Below are positions 5,573 to 21,108 of a stretch of 33,967 bases of DNA, piece by piece. This stretch comes from Bernardetia sp. (GTDB lineage: Bacteria; Bacteroidota; Bacteroidia; Cytophagales; Bernardetiaceae), in NCBI RefSeq assembly GCF_020630935.1, contig NZ_JAHDIG010000004.1, positions 89,395 through 123,361 of the forward strand, read 5' to 3'. Within the stretch, counting starts at the first letter, position 1, and every line of letters begins with the position of its first letter. Position numbers and translations under genes: made by a program. The notes beneath the pieces are model-generated. The model was not told the DNA's origin. It saw only the letters and a list, made by a program, of their open reading frames with translations, and did not search any database.

Positions 5573-5902
5573 TTAAGAATGACTTACATATTCTACTATA
5601 AAATTATTTTCTTCCCTTTGCCAGTGTTCTTCTAAGTATTTGATTAGAGAAAATAACTCATCGTAATCATCCCTACTTTTTTCCACTTTATTCATATTCT
5701 TGAGAATGAGTTTGTAGTTTTTCTGTTCTATCCATTCCAAACCTGTTAGAAAATCATTCAGAGCATCAAGATTAGGAACAATTGAGTAAATAGAAAAAGC
5801 AATGCTAAACTCTTCTATCAAACCTTGTTTGCCTTTACACTTAGAAGTATTTATTTCCGTAATGAAATATTCTTTGTCTTCTATTTTTTCTATGTATTGC
5901 AT
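5573..5902 (-). CDS. Barstar-family protein (putative ribonuclease inhibitor/immunity protein)
   Basis: The frame is open back to 5989, but that part overlaps the upstream gene; the ATG at 5902 gives a 109-residue protein starting MQYIEKIEDKEY, only 2 nt after the upstream stop, consistent with translational coupling. Residues about 20-60 carry the barstar-like pattern: CKGKQGLIEEF helix, then PNLDALNDFLTGLEWI, equivalent to the NLDALxDxL helix of barstar relatives, then a strand KLILKNMNKV. Barstar binds and blocks the RNase barnase; related proteins serve as immunity factors for secreted nucleases or as antitoxins. No barnase-like gene is in the window, so the partner is unknown. The usual Tyr-Phe-Gly-Asn loop before the helix is altered (SIYSIVPNLDAL), so partner specificity may differ. 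Acidic overall, cytoplasmic. Confidence 0.75.
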   Translation of the reverse strand: MQYIEKIEDKEYFITEINTSKCKGKQGLIEEFSIAFSIYSIVPNLDALNDFLTGLEWIEQKNYKLILKNMNKVEKSRDDYDELFSLIKYLEEHWQREENNFIVEYVSHS

Positions 5903-5904
5903 TT

Positions 5905-6837
5905 TTACTCCACTTCCTCCGATTTTTCTTCTATATCCTTTATAGCAGCATCTATAAATGCCTGTCCAAAAGAAGTAAAACCAATACACCTATGTACAAT
6001 CCTTATATTACCAACAACTCTAGGGTCATTAATTTCTAGCTCCTTTTCAAATCGATTTATTACATCTTTGTATAGTTCATTAGTTAAATAATCGTATCTT
6101 TCTTTGTGTACTTCTTGCCATTCGTCTGCAAACGATATTATACCTAATCGTTCTAAGTTTTCTAAATATAAATCAATATTTTTAGGAAAATATAGTTTAA
6201 TATCTTCACTAAGTTCAATTCCAGTTAAGTTGTAAGCTAACTTTACAGGACTTAGAGACCTTTTACTACTAAGATATTTAATATCATTACGTAACTCGTC
6301 TGTAGTTTTTACTCTTCCCTCAACTTTTTTAGGAGGAGGTTCTGAGAAAACATCAGCTTCATAAAGCACGTCTATAAAAGGTATTTTGTTATCTTTTCTG
6401 TACTTGAAAAGTAGAATAGCTTCATCTACTGATAAGTTATCTATTATGCTGACAAATGAAGGATGTACAGTCCCAACATTATTTTTAGATGATGCCTTAG
6501 TCAATAAATTGATGAAAGCATTAGACAAATTTTCATCACCTGTAGAAGTAAGTTTGTCAAAAATAGGTAGCCCTATTTGTTCAGGAACTTTCTGCAAATC
6601 ATCTTCAGGGATTTTATCTAATTTTTCCTTGTACTTTTTTAAATTATTTTCTAAATAAAGTTTAGAACGAGCATTTGCGAGTTTAATTGGAAGCAGAATT
6701 AAATTTCCTGCATCAATTATATTAGCTAAAACTTCTCCCACTTTTTTCAAAGGAGGGCTAAATAAATCATCATATAATTTGTCTGTGGGAATTTTATCCA
6801 TTACAGCTTTTACTGCTTTTGATACTTCTTCATCCAT
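5905..6837 (-). CDS. DUF4393 / Abi-alpha family protein
   Basis: The 310-residue protein has the layout of the DUF4393 (Abi-alpha) family: an N-terminal helical part with FSPPLKKVGEVLANII (about 26-41), a Lys-rich helix ending in KIPEDDLQKVPEQIGLPIFDKLTST, a GDENLSNAFINLLTKASSK helix, and the hallmark VHPSFVSIIDNLSVDEAILL (about 124-143). In lactococci, Abi-alpha is linked to abortive infection of phage, but for most members the function is untested. No signal peptide; the short stretch ANIIDAGNLILLPIKLANA is moderately hydrophobic and could touch a membrane. It heads a cassette with the barstar-like gene (2 nt gap) and the DUF7352-like gene. Its start is 34 nt after the stop of the DUF4175 gene, so read-through from that gene is possible. 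Confidence 0.8.
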   Translation of the reverse strand: MDEEVSKAVKAVMDKIPTDKLYDDLFSPPLKKVGEVLANIIDAGNLILLPIKLANARSKLYLENNLKKYKEKLDKIPEDDLQKVPEQIGLPIFDKLTSTGDENLSNAFINLLTKASSKNNVGTVHPSFVSIIDNLSVDEAILLFKYRKDNKIPFIDVLYEADVFSEPPPKKVEGRVKTTDELRNDIKYLSSKRSLSPVKLAYNLTGIELSEDIKLYFPKNIDLYLENLERLGIISFADEWQEVHKERYDYLTNELYKDVINRFEKELEINDPRVVGNIRIVHRCIGFTSFGQAFIDAAIKDIEEKSEEVE

Positions 6838-14001: not shown

Positions 14002-15768
14002 CTAAAACTCATACAAACGCTGTCCGATATTGAGTCTTAATCCTAGTGAAAAAACTGTCGAACTCAAATCTCTAGTGGAAATAGCAGAGGTTTTGTTTCT
14101 TTGAATAACATCAGCGTCTATAAAAAGATTGTGGTAAAGCTGATAAGTAGCTGTAAAACGACCAAATAGAATGTTTGTCTCTACACCTTGTCCAATAGTA
14201 TTTCCATATTCGTTGGTGTCATCTACATCTACATTCGGAATCAGAAGATTGCTACCCCAGTTACTGCCATCTGAATCTTCCCCAACATCAGCATAAATAA
14301 ACTTGCCTGTAAGATTTAATCTTGGAGTGGGTTGATAACGCAAAATACCTAAAAACTCTATAAAATTAGCACCCAAAGGATGTGCAAGAGGTTGTCTGTA
14401 ATGCACAAAATTAGAAAGCTGCTCATCTGATGAGTGAGTATAAGTGTAAGGACGAACAATATTTGTTTCTAGCTGTAAATCTAAATTCTTGATTTTGGCA
14501 ACATCAATATAATTCAAACCTAGCTGAATACCATATTTATTTCCCCACCAACCATTATTATCTATCAGTTCTCCAATTTTTAATTCATCTAAAACAAACT
14601 GTCCATAGACTTGAAATCCCTTTGCAGGAAGCCATTTAAAATCTGCTCCTAAAAGTGCGTTATCCACACTTCCGATACCCTGTTCAACGGCACGATAAAA
14701 AATAAATGGGTTGAGGTAGGTCAAATCAAAAGTATCATTTTGTCCTTGGTCTTTTCTTCCGTAAGCAATACTTTCAAAAACACCTAAGTTAAATTTCTTA
14801 GATAAGTCAATACTTAAATGATGGTAAATAACATATTTTTTAGGATACAGTGTATTTGCTCGCTGTACATCAGCCACCATTTGTGTATAAAGATTGGTAT
14901 AGTTTATTTTCCAAAACTTAGTTTGTAGTTTCAAAAATAAGTGAGGAGGTGCAAAATCAGACAAGACAAGTGAGCGATAGCCATTACCAATAAAGTTTTT
15001 GTCTTGTCCAAATTGTACATCAACCACCTTAGCAACATTAAAAGTAATATAGCCAGTCGCTCTCAAAAAATCTACACCATTTTCTTTAAAAGGTTTAGCA
15101 AAGGCTTCATTTGGTACTACAAAATTCTCTAACGAACGGTCTGGACTTAAAGAATCAATCATATTCTGCACATAGCGAGGAAAAATAGCTTGTGTTTCGG
15201 TTACAGACACATAAAAACCAATCCTGCGAGCTACCACGCCATGAACTTCTGCCCCTCTGGTATTCAAAGTGAGTAAGTCATCTCTTGTGTTGTCTTGCCC
15301 TACTCCTAAATGCAAAATTGGATTGACACGAATGACATAATCTAATGCTCCCTTTTCCAATTTCATATCGTAATTATCATTCAAAAAAGAAAGAAAATCT
15401 GGTTTTCGCTTATAGAAATATTTTAAAACTCCTTTCTGTTTTGCGCTGTCTTTTTTTGTAAACTCATAATTATCATTTAAAAGATAATCAATATTGAATT
15501 TATCTGATTTTGAGTAGTTTTTCGTACTATCCAAAGCTAAAGAATCTGTAAATAGAGCAATATTGGAGCGAGAAAGGGGAAGTGTAGAACTATGAAAAGG
15601 CTTAAAAAACTTTCCTCGTTTTATCTCATAACGCTTTAAAAGATGGTAATAATCTGTTTGATAAGTTACAAAACTAGAAGTGTTGGTTTGAGAAAAGCTA
15701 GAATGGACAAAGAAGAACAAAAAAGCCATCAATACAACTTTTGTATAGACGAATGTATAATATTTCAT
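14002..15768 (-). CDS. RemB/Wzi-like outer-membrane beta-barrel protein
   Basis: The 588-residue protein has a signal peptide (residues 1-27, cut at SFS-Q) and a long run of amphipathic strands ending in an aromatic residue (YEF), as in outer-membrane barrels. The segments DYVIRVNPILHLGVGQD, NTRGAEVHGVVARRIGFYVSVTETQAIFPRYVQ, and VVDVQFGQDKNFIGNGYRSLVLSDFAPP resemble RemB of Flavobacterium (gliding motility) and the capsule-attachment Wzi group. This is from memory of the family, without a search. Its start codon overlaps the CapA stop by four bases (ATGA), so it is translationally coupled to CapA. The pairing suggests a polysaccharide or polymer surface function. The transcript ends at the 13963-13988 terminator. 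Confidence 0.72.
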   Translation of the reverse strand: MKYYTFVYTKVVLMAFLFFFVHSSFSQTNTSSFVTYQTDYYHLLKRYEIKRGKFFKPFHSSTLPLSRSNIALFTDSLALDSTKNYSKSDKFNIDYLLNDNYEFTKKDSAKQKGVLKYFYKRKPDFLSFLNDNYDMKLEKGALDYVIRVNPILHLGVGQDNTRDDLLTLNTRGAEVHGVVARRIGFYVSVTETQAIFPRYVQNMIDSLSPDRSLENFVVPNEAFAKPFKENGVDFLRATGYITFNVAKVVDVQFGQDKNFIGNGYRSLVLSDFAPPHLFLKLQTKFWKINYTNLYTQMVADVQRANTLYPKKYVIYHHLSIDLSKKFNLGVFESIAYGRKDQGQNDTFDLTYLNPFIFYRAVEQGIGSVDNALLGADFKWLPAKGFQVYGQFVLDELKIGELIDNNGWWGNKYGIQLGLNYIDVAKIKNLDLQLETNIVRPYTYTHSSDEQLSNFVHYRQPLAHPLGANFIEFLGILRYQPTPRLNLTGKFIYADVGEDSDGSNWGSNLLIPNVDVDDTNEYGNTIGQGVETNILFGRFTATYQLYHNLFIDADVIQRNKTSAISTRDLSSTVFSLGLRLNIGQRLYEF

Positions 15769-18205: not shown

Positions 18206-18709
18206 TTAAAATTGAATTTCGTAGAACTCCAGTCCTCTTTCATTTGTCTTTTTCGTTATTTCAATATTAGGCTCTACAAAATCAATTTTTGTTATTTTAT
18301 AAGAAGAGCAACAAGAAGTTATATTATCTTTTGATTTTTTTGTTGTTAATGCAAAAGTACCTATGTACACGTCTTTAAGCCAAAGTTTGAACCCCTCTGC
18401 TTTATTTGCGTAATCTATATATTCTTCGTCCTCTATACCTATAAATAAATATGGTGGTTCATTATTCCAAGAATAAGGTGTTACAGTCATAGTATTTATA
18501 ATATTATCAAAATCATCTGTTAAATAGGCTCTGTTTTCGAATGAATCACTTATTCCATATTTGATAATAGCGTTTTCTCCTGTTTCTTTATCAACCAACT
18601 TAAAATATAAACCTTCCATACTAGGTAAACAATAATCCCCACAAGCAGAGCAACCTGTACACAAAAAAAGAATTAGCAAATTAAAAAGCATTCGATACGA
18701 CATAATCAA
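18206..18709 (-). CDS. Small Cys-rich lipoprotein, function unknown
   Basis: The 167-residue product begins with a hydrophobic segment then LCTGC (Cys20), a plausible though atypical lipobox, and more cysteines follow close by (CSACGDYC). The start is uncertain: ATGs at codons 1, 3 and 7 would all give a signal peptide. The mature part is mixed beta, with FKLVDKETGENAIIKYG, SWNNEPPYLFIG, LKDVYIGTFALTTKK and a late CCSSYK pair. No family recognised. It is the first gene left of the replication origin region and reads away from it. Confidence 0.62.
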   Translation of the reverse strand: MIMSYRMLFNLLILFLCTGCSACGDYCLPSMEGLYFKLVDKETGENAIIKYGISDSFENRAYLTDDFDNIINTMTVTPYSWNNEPPYLFIGIEDEEYIDYANKAEGFKLWLKDVYIGTFALTTKKSKDNITSCCSSYKITKIDFVEPNIEITKKTNERGLEFYEIQF

Positions 18710-18883
18710 AATGAGTTTAGAATTTCATAACATTTGAATACCATCGAAACGATAGAACAAAACAAACTGCTGCATTCAAAATCAATTTCAAAAATTTTTT
18801 TTTTTTCTCCATTTCAAAACTTTTCCACACACTAAATAATAAGAAATTCATTTTTTAAAAAACCCCTATTACTACTATTATGG

Positions 18884-19530
18884 TGTTGATAAGTGGATAA
18901 GTCTAGTTATCAACACGTTATCCACAGAAAAAATGACTTTATCCACAATTTTTTATCTACTTATTAACTATGTAAATTATTGATAGTCAAGACTTTAAAT
19001 GCTTTATCCACACTATCAACATTTGATAAGCAGTTATTATCAACATTGTGGATAAGTTGTTAATAACCAAAAAGTTAGTGTTGGTAACGTTATCAACACC
19101 TGTTAGTAACTATTTCTTAACATCACTTACTCACATCTAGCACACAAGTTATACACAGCTATTCACACAAATTGTGAATAAGTGTGGAAAAGGTGGATAA
19201 CTCCTCATTTTGTGTATAAAATCTGTGGAAAAGTATAAAGTTATCCACATAAAATTGTGGATATGTGGATAAGTCTGCCAATTAGATTAGATTTCTAAAA
19301 ATCAAACTTAAAAAATTAGAATCTAAATTTAAAATTGTGGGTAACTTTTGTTAAAATGTGGATAAGTAGTATAAAAAAGTGAATAAGTGTGGATAAGATT
19401 TGGATTTCTCGTGTGAATAACGTGTTACATCAAGATTTCGACTGTATAAACATCTGAAAAACCAAGAAAAACCTTAGCAAATGTGGATAACTTCTTTCAA
19501 ATTGTGGATAACTTTAAAAAATGTGTATAA
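18884..19530. other. Probable chromosomal replication origin (oriC), DnaA-box cluster
   Basis: The 962-nt gap 18710-19671 has no gene. It holds ten perfect DnaA boxes. Plus orientation (TTATCCACA): 18918, 18939, 19004, 19241. Minus orientation (TGTGGATAA): 19047, 19264, 19357, 19388, 19482, 19503. Thirteen or more one-mismatch boxes start at 18884, 18892, 18907, 19037, 19090, 19149, 19173, 19192, 19211, 19256, 19336, 19412 and 19522. Very AT-rich tracts suitable for unwinding flank or divide them: a run of 12 T at 18795-18806, and 19281-19335 with repeated TTAGA/TCTAA motifs. DnaA binding at such arrays starts replication. dnaA is not adjacent, which is common in Bacteroidota. The alternatives (plasmid origin, DnaA-titration site) are less likely among housekeeping genes. 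Confidence 0.87.
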
Positions 19531-19552
19531 AATTTGGCTTTTGAAGTAAAAA

Positions 19553-19590
19553 ACAAATAAAAAACCATCTCTTCTTACGAAAAGATGGTT
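19553..19590 (-). terminator. Intrinsic terminator of the glutamate dehydrogenase gene
   Basis: On the minus strand AACCATCT, a 12-nt loop, AGATGGTT (plus coordinates 19563-19570 and 19583-19590), followed by TTTTTATTTG. It is about 80 nt past the dehydrogenase stop and would shield the origin region from its transcription. Confidence 0.8.
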
Positions 19591-19671
19591 ATTGATAACT
19601 TTTACAAAAAATAATTTTAAACTTTGACTTACAAAGTAAAATTTATTTTCCTTATGTATAATACTGATAAA

Positions 19672-21108
19672 TCAAGGGAAGATACCAGATTCCATATAAG
19701 CAATAGCAATCTTATCAATAGAGGTAATAAAAGCTGCATTACGCAAACTCTTGACATCTTTATAATTCTTAAAGGTTTCTCTCACTTGGTGATATGAAGT
19801 AATCATAGTTTCTTCTAAAGCAGAGTTTACCAAATCACGCTCATCTGCACCACGCATAATCATTCTGCGAAGGTCGTCGCCTACTCCTTTTCCTGTTGCA
19901 GCTTCGATAGCTTGTACGATACGAGTGTTTTCCATTTGGTCGTAACGCTTAGTAATCTTACCAAACGAAACACGAGAAAGATTTTTGAGCCATTCTAAGT
20001 AAGAAACTGTAACACCCCCAGCATTGAGATAAAAGTCTGGAAGAATCATTTTACCTTTTTCCAACAAAATAGCTTCAGCTTCTCTAGTAATAGGACCATT
20101 TGCACCCTCTCCGATTACTTTTGCTTTAATTCTTGGTGCATTTTCTTCTGTAATTTGGTTTTCTAAAGCAGCAGGAATAAGAACATCACATTCAAATTCC
20201 ATGAGTTGATTGCTTGGCTTTACTTCTTGAGCTTTTGGATAGCCCATTAGTGAGCCTGTTTCTTTACGATGACGGAATAAATCTTCTACATCAAAACCAT
20301 CTTTGTTATATACACCACCTTCGTATTCAGCAATTCCTACAACGATTGCACCCTCTTTTTGTGCATACAGTGCAGCGTGGTATCCCACGTTACCAAACCC
20401 TTGTACAATAACCGTCTTTCCTGCCAGCCCAGGAGTAAGTCCTAATTCCTTCATATCTTCAGCAATACTCATTGCTTCACGAATACCGAAGATAACACCT
20501 AGTCCGGTTGCTTCAGTACGTCCACGGATTCCGTGCATTGAAAGAGGCTTACCTGTAACACAACCTAGTGCATTGATTCCTGGACGAAGAAGTGAATACG
20601 TATCAGCAATCCAAGCCATTTCTCTTGCGCCTGTTCCATAGTCAGGAGCAGGAACATCAATAGAAGGACCTATCATTTCTTTTTTTACAAGTTCTGTTGT
20701 ATAACGACGTGTAATTGTTTCTAACTGGCGAGCTGTATATTTTTTAGGATTGATTTTTACACCTCCTTTAGCTCCACCAAAAGGAACATTTACGAGCGCA
20801 CACTTAAAAGACATAAGTGTTGCAAGTGCTTTTACTTCATCTGCATTTACAGCTTCAGCAAAACGAATACCTCCTTTTACGGGAAGTTTGTGGTGAGAGT
20901 GCTGAACTCTCCACGCTTTGATTACTTGGTAATCGTCGTTGTCTAGGCGAAGAGGAAAACTCATTTCATAGACACTATTAGGAACGATAATTTGTTCTAG
21001 TAGCCCTTTGGGGTGCTTGGTAAGTGCTGCTGCATTGTTGAGCGAGCCAAGTACATCTTTGTAGAATTTAGCACCTTGGTCTAAATGTTCTTTATCATTG
21101 TTTGCCAT
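19672..21108 (-). CDS. gdhA: Glutamate dehydrogenase (Glu/Leu/Phe/Val dehydrogenase family)
   Basis: Reversibly deaminates glutamate to 2-oxoglutarate and ammonia with NAD(P). The 478-residue cytoplasmic protein has LPVKGGIRF (substrate-binding Lys78), the catalytic-lysine loop PFGGAKGGVKINP (Lys114), DVPAPDYGTGAREMAWIADTY (catalytic Asp156) and a Rossmann motif VIVQGFGNVGYHAA near 230. It looks more like the animal GLUD1-type hexameric enzyme than like the E. coli NADP enzyme; the gene symbol is therefore generic. Cofactor use cannot be decided by eye. A strong terminator follows. It lies immediately right of the replication origin and reads toward it. Confidence 0.96.
   Translation of the reverse strand: MANNDKEHLDQGAKFYKDVLGSLNNAAALTKHPKGLLEQIIVPNSVYEMSFPLRLDNDDYQVIKAWRVQHSHHKLPVKGGIRFAEAVNADEVKALATLMSFKCALVNVPFGGAKGGVKINPKKYTARQLETITRRYTTELVKKEMIGPSIDVPAPDYGTGAREMAWIADTYSLLRPGINALGCVTGKPLSMHGIRGRTEATGLGVIFGIREAMSIAEDMKELGLTPGLAGKTVIVQGFGNVGYHAALYAQKEGAIVVGIAEYEGGVYNKDGFDVEDLFRHRKETGSLMGYPKAQEVKPSNQLMEFECDVLIPAALENQITEENAPRIKAKVIGEGANGPITREAEAILLEKGKMILPDFYLNAGGVTVSYLEWLKNLSRVSFGKITKRYDQMENTRIVQAIEAATGKGVGDDLRRMIMRGADERDLVNSALEETMITSYHQVRETFKNYKDVKSLRNAAFITSIDKIAIAYMESGIFP

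Follow-up and report, generated by a model that had tools for sequence, protein, structure and literature searches.

According to the Ori-Finder paper (PMC2275245), only 342 of 568 chromosomes have an oriC that adjoins dnaA and also lies close to the skew switch. Named cases of an oriC apart from dnaA are Escherichia coli (PMC8287927) and Synechococcus lividus PCC 6715 (PMC6323995). The separation of the two is already well documented; less ordinary at the locus described here are the near-terminal dnaA gene and an adjoining block of trio-like triplets. In the DnaA-trio model, as set out in PMC8287927 (further sources are PMC10721633 and PMC6669920), the trios are placed on the 5' tail leaving the DnaA boxes; a looser rule for the BUS, given in PMC8287927, asks for three or more 3'-NAN-5' triplets no farther than 16 bp from a box. 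Among the titles and abstract openings covered, no published oriC of Bernardetia and no near-terminus dnaA was recognised; DoriC may already contain this origin for a congener.

The window, that is, the whole stretch of 33,967 nucleotides that was analysed (G000:C4:89395-123361), comes from a draft genome (G000) of 4,748,171 bases in 153 contigs. Positions 18821-19530 of the window are very probably the DnaA-dependent chromosomal oriC of this marine Bernardetia-like bacterium of the Bernardetiaceae (Cytophagales). The computed support consists of the box cluster, its uniqueness and conservation, the GC skew, the distance to dnaA in three relatives and the normal domains of DnaA; from these we infer DnaA binding, an opening site and bidirectional firing at the cluster. 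The parts of the locus are as follows (positions in the window).

18821-19530, no strand: predicted oriC with 26 DnaA boxes (at most one mismatch, 10 perfect), from a box search and an alignment with six congeners.
18821-18829, plus strand: left-most DnaA box, TTTTCCACA here and perfect in G001; none of the 7 genomes has more than one mismatch in it.
18830-18862, no strand: AT-rich stretch, candidate DNA-unwinding element (29 of 33 bases A or T).
18863-18866, plus strand: CCCC just before the trio run, as read on this strand.
18866-18880, minus strand: candidate DnaA-trio run 3'-GAT-AAT-GAT-GAT-AAT-5'; the run has five triplets in six of the 7 genomes and four in G001.
18883-18916, no strand: inverted repeat with 15-nt arms (87% complementary) and a 4-nt loop, spanning boxes 18884-18892 (minus), 18892-18900 (minus) and 18907-18915 (plus).
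18918-18947, plus strand: two perfect boxes, 18918 and 18939, at a distance of 21 bp; across all 7 genomes each has 0 or 1 mismatch.
19004-19055, no strand: perfect boxes 19004 (plus) and 19047 (minus), the latter perfect in 7 of 7 genomes.
19241-19272, no strand: facing perfect boxes 19241 (plus) and 19264 (minus); 19241 has 2 mismatches in G004.
19357-19396, minus strand: perfect boxes 19357 and 19388, the latter not retained in the six relatives.
19482-19511, minus strand: two boxes, 19482 and 19503, at a distance of 21 bp, both of them perfect in all 7 genomes.
19563-19590, minus strand: predicted terminator-like hairpin at the gdhA 3' end and right border of the origin; its 8-nt arms and the T run that follows on the minus strand were read by eye from the sequence and the alignment.
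19672-21108, minus strand: gdhA, glutamate dehydrogenase (identity confirmed with Pfam and NCBIfam); in all seven Bernardetia genomes the 3' end of the gene points towards the cluster.

The interval between the open reading frame at 18206-18709 (minus) and gdhA (minus) contains no open reading frame of 100 or more residues over 962 bp (18710-19671). A preliminary description had spoken of gene-free DNA between a lipoprotein gene and gdhA; the open interval and gdhA were borne out, and the frame called a lipoprotein gave no match in Pfam or NCBIfam. That frame does not anchor the locus, because only 4 of 400 columns are invariant among the 7 genomes. The Pfam scan covered 26 of the 34 open reading frames of at least 100 residues in the window (10 of them also with NCBIfam), and the other 8 overlap scanned ones. 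None of the 26 matched DnaA, DnaN or MnmG, in agreement with the earlier remark that no dnaA, dnaN or gidA/mnmG gene is near; RNA families and tRNAs were absent from the window. Elsewhere in the window (5573-6837, minus strand) a barstar-like frame (PF01337) lies beside and overlaps an abortive-infection alpha gene (PF14337).

The number of DnaA boxes was assessed by searching for TTATCCACA with at most one mismatch. Positions 18884-19530 contain 25 such boxes, of which 10 are perfect and 15 have one mismatch (the preliminary description gave ten and at least thirteen), and one additional one-mismatch box lies outside this interval at 18821-18829. The whole window has 13 perfect boxes, compared with a mean of 0.26 and a maximum of 2 in 100 dinucleotide shuffles of the whole window, and 39 boxes with at most one mismatch, compared with a mean of 9.55 and a maximum of 17. 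DnaA boxes at the cluster are thus far above chance. Boxes are not common as such, since the genome contains 58 perfect ones, which is fewer than the 84 matches to the reversed control. Ten of these 58 are packed into 594 bp at the cluster, and no second dense cluster was found among all 58. Pairs of perfect boxes with 5–35 bp between them occur three times in the genome, all at the cluster (reversed pattern: 0). In G001, a congener assembled as a single contig of 4.92 Mb, 12 of 81 perfect boxes fall within 688 bp beside gdhA; a second dense cluster is absent among all 81, the next densest place having 2 boxes about 130 bp apart. Overall, there is one dense cluster in G000 and one in G001, and one paired-box locus in each of G000–G006. 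Isolated perfect boxes were also noted at window positions 14660, 27627 and 30142 and at C4:126898; these four within 20 kb of the cluster are more than would be predicted from the genome-wide mean of roughly one per 100 kb. The clusters of G001–G004 and G006 together have a single isolated perfect box within about 10 kb.

The dnaA gene of the same genome is on a separate contig (C43), flanked by an amidase gene and, on the opposite side, by threonyl-tRNA-synthetase-type and S41 peptidase genes. Its distance from the cluster, expressed as a fraction of the contig, is 0.42 in G001, 0.48 in G002 and 0.44 in G003, three congeners that are not independent of each other. In these three, dnaA seems to sit in the terminus half, near the antipode of the cluster. 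The numbering of G001 begins at dnaA (match 330-2126), and, provided that the contig closes into a circle, the box nearest to the gene is a single one at 4,911,277, at a distance of about 8 kb; if the contig is not closed, the nearest box is at 80,927, about 79 kb off. An equal cluster beside dnaA, which the preliminary description had named as evidence against its reading, is absent in G000 and G001. The DnaA protein itself has normal AAA+ and DNA-binding domains (domains III and IV). The best match among structural chains was 8btg (E 1.5e-96), which we take to be the B. subtilis BUS complex; 1j1v, presumably E. coli DnaA domain IV bound to a DnaA box, matched with an E of 2.4e-14. About 170 residues separate the matches to domain I and domain III, and by eye this linker (own dnaA at L001:1489-3336, minus strand) looks rich in Q and N. 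DnaA of the genus is long, with open frames of 619–645 residues in 7 genomes compared with 471–584 in 40 other genomes of the order.

Because our own genome is a draft in 153 contigs, samples of GC skew were taken from the three congeners that carry the cluster on one long contig. We took 60 stretches from G001 (20 kb each; 2 partly masked), 42 from G003 and 22 from G002 (1 partly masked), a few of them chosen at the cluster or at dnaA. Since raw skew is tightly correlated with gene strand (r 0.81 in G001), the strand effect was regressed out. The contrast was defined as right arm minus left arm, with the origin at the cluster and the terminus opposite. The strand-corrected contrast was +0.029 for the G001 cluster, and 0 of 10,000 permutations, which treat stretches as independent and ignore the correlation between neighbours, were as large. 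For G003 it was +0.016 (p 0.0065 at that position) and for G002 +0.015 (p about 0.008, 0.0077, at that position); the raw skew at the G002 cluster was not significant (p 0.31). With the origin set at dnaA the corrected contrast took the wrong sign in all three genomes (−0.025 in G001, −0.011 in G002 and −0.014 in G003). When any position was allowed as origin, p was 0/1000 for G001, 0.042 for G003 and 0.10 for G002, and on a 20-kb grid 12 of 246, 19 of 265 and 0 of 267 positions, respectively, scored better than the cluster.

The test resolves to about 100 kb or worse. The cumulative minimum of G001 falls on the sample centred on 2.142 Mb, with the cluster at 2.059 Mb and samples 82 kb apart. 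The corrected minimum of G003 (3.15 Mb) is the next sample to the cluster (3.017 Mb), and the best corrected position in that genome is 2.50–2.60 Mb; the corrected minimum of G002 (1.70 Mb) misses the cluster at 2.118 Mb. On our own contig the corrected skew, obtained with the strand coefficient of G001, is −0.012 to the left (108 kb) and +0.009 to the right (25 kb) of the cluster, which is an agreement in sign only. Gene strand bias gave no origin signal pointing to the cluster in G001. Overall, the sampled, strand-corrected skew is consistent with an origin at the cluster, strongly and with a clear minimum in G001, more weakly and coarsely in G002 and G003. The skew check proposed in the preliminary description thus came out coarsely in favour of the cluster in three congeners, G002 not being significant over all positions, and the proposal of an origin away from dnaA gains support from the boxes, their conservation and this sampled skew.

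In principle, the cluster could be a DnaA-titration or DnaA-regulating locus that does not fire, with the true oriC elsewhere; datA and DARS of E. coli are such loci. We consider this improbable. Such a locus could also carry many boxes, no replication gene was found among the 26 scanned proteins of the window, and the limited resolution of the skew would accommodate it. However, neither G000 nor G001 has another dense cluster, the skew favours a nearby origin in three genomes, and the conserved AT-rich and trio-bearing block that adjoins the boxes would be unexpected for a pure titration site.

The very probable assignment as oriC is also in keeping with the conservation of the locus, which is intergenic and retained between relatives. 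The cluster adjoins the 3' end of gdhA in all seven Bernardetia genomes (G000–G006), and perfect-box pairs with 5–35 bp between them are found at one gdhA-linked locus in each of the seven (reversed pattern: none). GdhA is 92–97% identical to its counterparts in the six other genomes of the genus. Across 18809-19530, 173 of 232 box bases are invariant in all seven genomes, compared with 242 of 490 non-box bases (Fisher p 9e-11). Boxes 19047, 19482 and 19503 are perfect throughout, and boxes 19211 and 19388 are not retained in the six relatives. Two other members of the family have like clusters. The 13 perfect boxes of G008, within about 1.2 kb, are flanked by a short-chain dehydrogenase frame, which the left boxes overlap when it is listed from a GTG start, and by a frame with a weak RecF/RecN/SMC match under the Pfam cut-off. 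Those of G009 number 25, also within about 1.2 kb, and lie between Uma2-family and carbon-nitrogen-hydrolase genes. The neighbours in G008 and G009 differ, and therefore the boxes stay together while their neighbours change between genera. Paired boxes were absent from G007 and G010 of the same family. Some boxes of the G009 cluster (G009:C87 14911-16074) form two equally spaced sets, 14911/14965/14997 and 15123/15177/15209, which suggests a duplicated unit.

This conservation bears on two further explanations, both of which we regard as very remote. DnaA boxes are present in some plasmid origins (PMC6323995), and the cluster could be the origin not of the chromosome but of a plasmid or another mobile element integrated in it; against this stand the lack of a rep, integrase or partition family among the 26 scanned window proteins, the same gdhA-side site in 7 of 7 genomes and the fit to a chromosome-wide skew. 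A transcription-control region, with DnaA as regulator of gdhA or of the frame upstream, would suit the position between two genes, but the cluster lies downstream of gdhA, the frame on the other side is hardly conserved (4 of 400 columns), like clusters in G008 and G009 have different neighbours, and 25 boxes would exceed any promoter need.

The left edge of the putative oriC, positions 18809-18883, is its most conserved part, with 56 of 75 columns invariant in the 7 genomes. It contains the left-most box, the AT-rich stretch, the CCCC and CTATTACTACTATTA, which amounts to five 3'-[GA]AT-5' triplets on the minus strand. The letters of the run vary among relatives, for example CTACTATTACTATTA and TTACTATTACTATTA, and runs of this kind are rare: in a background of 2.4 million strand-bases of G001, 16 runs reached at least four triplets and 2 reached at least five. 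The AT content of 18830-18862 is high, but the region as a whole is AT-rich (0.64–0.88 in 50-bp steps). Boxes 18884 and 18892 are co-oriented and lie 3 bp from the trio-like run, a register that is kept in the genus. The loose BUS rule describes this arrangement, although 33 of 496 background boxes also reach five triplets. Read from the near box pair the triplets are 3'-[TC]AT-5', which fits the loose rule only. Trios of the consensus 3'-GAT-5' type are present, but not on the 5' tail leaving a nearby box, the box on that side being 36 bp off. The block resembles DnaA-trios, with a polarity that does not fit the published model.

A plausible course of initiation can be drawn from these elements. 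DnaA, encoded on the far side of the chromosome, would bind the approximately 26 boxes and probably spread from the left-hand ones into the AT-rich and trio-bearing stretch 18830-18883. The strands would be opened there, whichever way the trios are read, the helicase would be loaded and the forks would leave the cluster in both directions. More tentatively, and with doubt prevailing, the initiator gene may lie near the replication terminus and hence be copied last, in combination with a trio block whose polarity is reversed relative to the B. subtilis model. If this were true, the supply of DnaA would rise at the end of a round of replication, and the link between initiator gene dose and initiation would be reversed; this is speculation.

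The analysis provides a precise and testable predicted oriC for Bernardetia. It also implies that a genome map beginning at dnaA, as that of G001 does, starts near the wrong end, and that taking dnaA as the origin would mislead coverage-based estimates of growth rate, arguments on gene dose and studies of inversion symmetry in these bacteria. Setting dnaA to position zero is the convention used in PMC9584773. The preliminary description held that searches relying on dnaA, dnaN or gidA/mnmG would miss the site; this applies to searches by marker genes only and not to Ori-Finder, which uses boxes and skew as well.

Close box pairs were also sought in the draft contigs of 148 genomes of the order. 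At least one pair was present in 63 of the 148 genomes (56 of 126 of good quality; 34 of 80 genera), and the reversed control gave 5 matches in 4 genomes. The dnaA gene was sought in 50 of the 63 genomes with pairs, G000–G006 and G019 among them; in G125 no match exceeded the cut-off. Of the places listed, a box pair less than 100 kb from dnaA occurs in G074 only, at about 5 kb; at the others dnaA is either on a different contig or more than 0.5 Mb distant on the same one. The dnaA match of G074 (G074:C18:57742-59129) is in two pieces, the longer with an internal stop codon. Clusters of boxes apart from dnaA may be a common feature of the order; the survey is suggestive only, and a single box pair is no proof of an origin.

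Two members of another family, G048 and G062, have a like cluster 5–6 kb from two parS-like sites each (G048:C2:913963-920174 and G062:C1:256501-262041), at 0.88 Mb and 1.79 Mb from dnaA, respectively. The sites close to the cluster are 2 of 3 in G048 and 2 of 7 in G062, where a third is 28 kb off. This proximity lends some independent support to the view that such clusters mark origins in this order; the parS pattern as such (at most 2 mismatches, 10 genomes) gave 22 forward matches compared with 31 in the reversed control and is not above it. Near the Bernardetia clusters no parS-like site with at most 2 mismatches was found. A search allowing up to 4 mismatches placed one 3-mismatch site 5.7 kb from our own cluster, and seven other regions examined had none with at most 3. 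A dif-like pattern (at most 3 mismatches, 4 genomes) gave 28 matches compared with 21 in the control, all with 3 mismatches and none outstanding. No SSU rRNA was found in the 5 genomes searched for the direction of rRNA operons.

The predicted oriC of Bernardetia can thus be set beside three kinds of system. Other Cytophagales clusters (G048, G062, G073, G075, G100 and others) likewise have several close TTATCCACA pairs in one place, with dnaA either at a great distance on the same contig (G048, G062) or located on a different one; those of G048 and G062 have parS-like sites at 5–6 kb, whereas the Bernardetia clusters are without such sites at up to 2 mismatches. The likeness to the B. subtilis BUS lies in the tandem boxes (18884 and 18892), the short spacer and the five trio-like triplets. 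It differs in that the strand carrying the exact 3'-[GA]AT-5' trios has its 3' side facing away from the box pair, and that a gap of 36 bp separates the trios from box 18821-18829 on the expected side. With E. coli and S. lividus the locus shares an intergenic cluster of DnaA boxes away from dnaA. Unlike that type, its fixed neighbour is gdhA and not gidA/mnmG or dnaN, and its dnaA lies close to the antipode (0.42–0.48 of the contig in three genomes).
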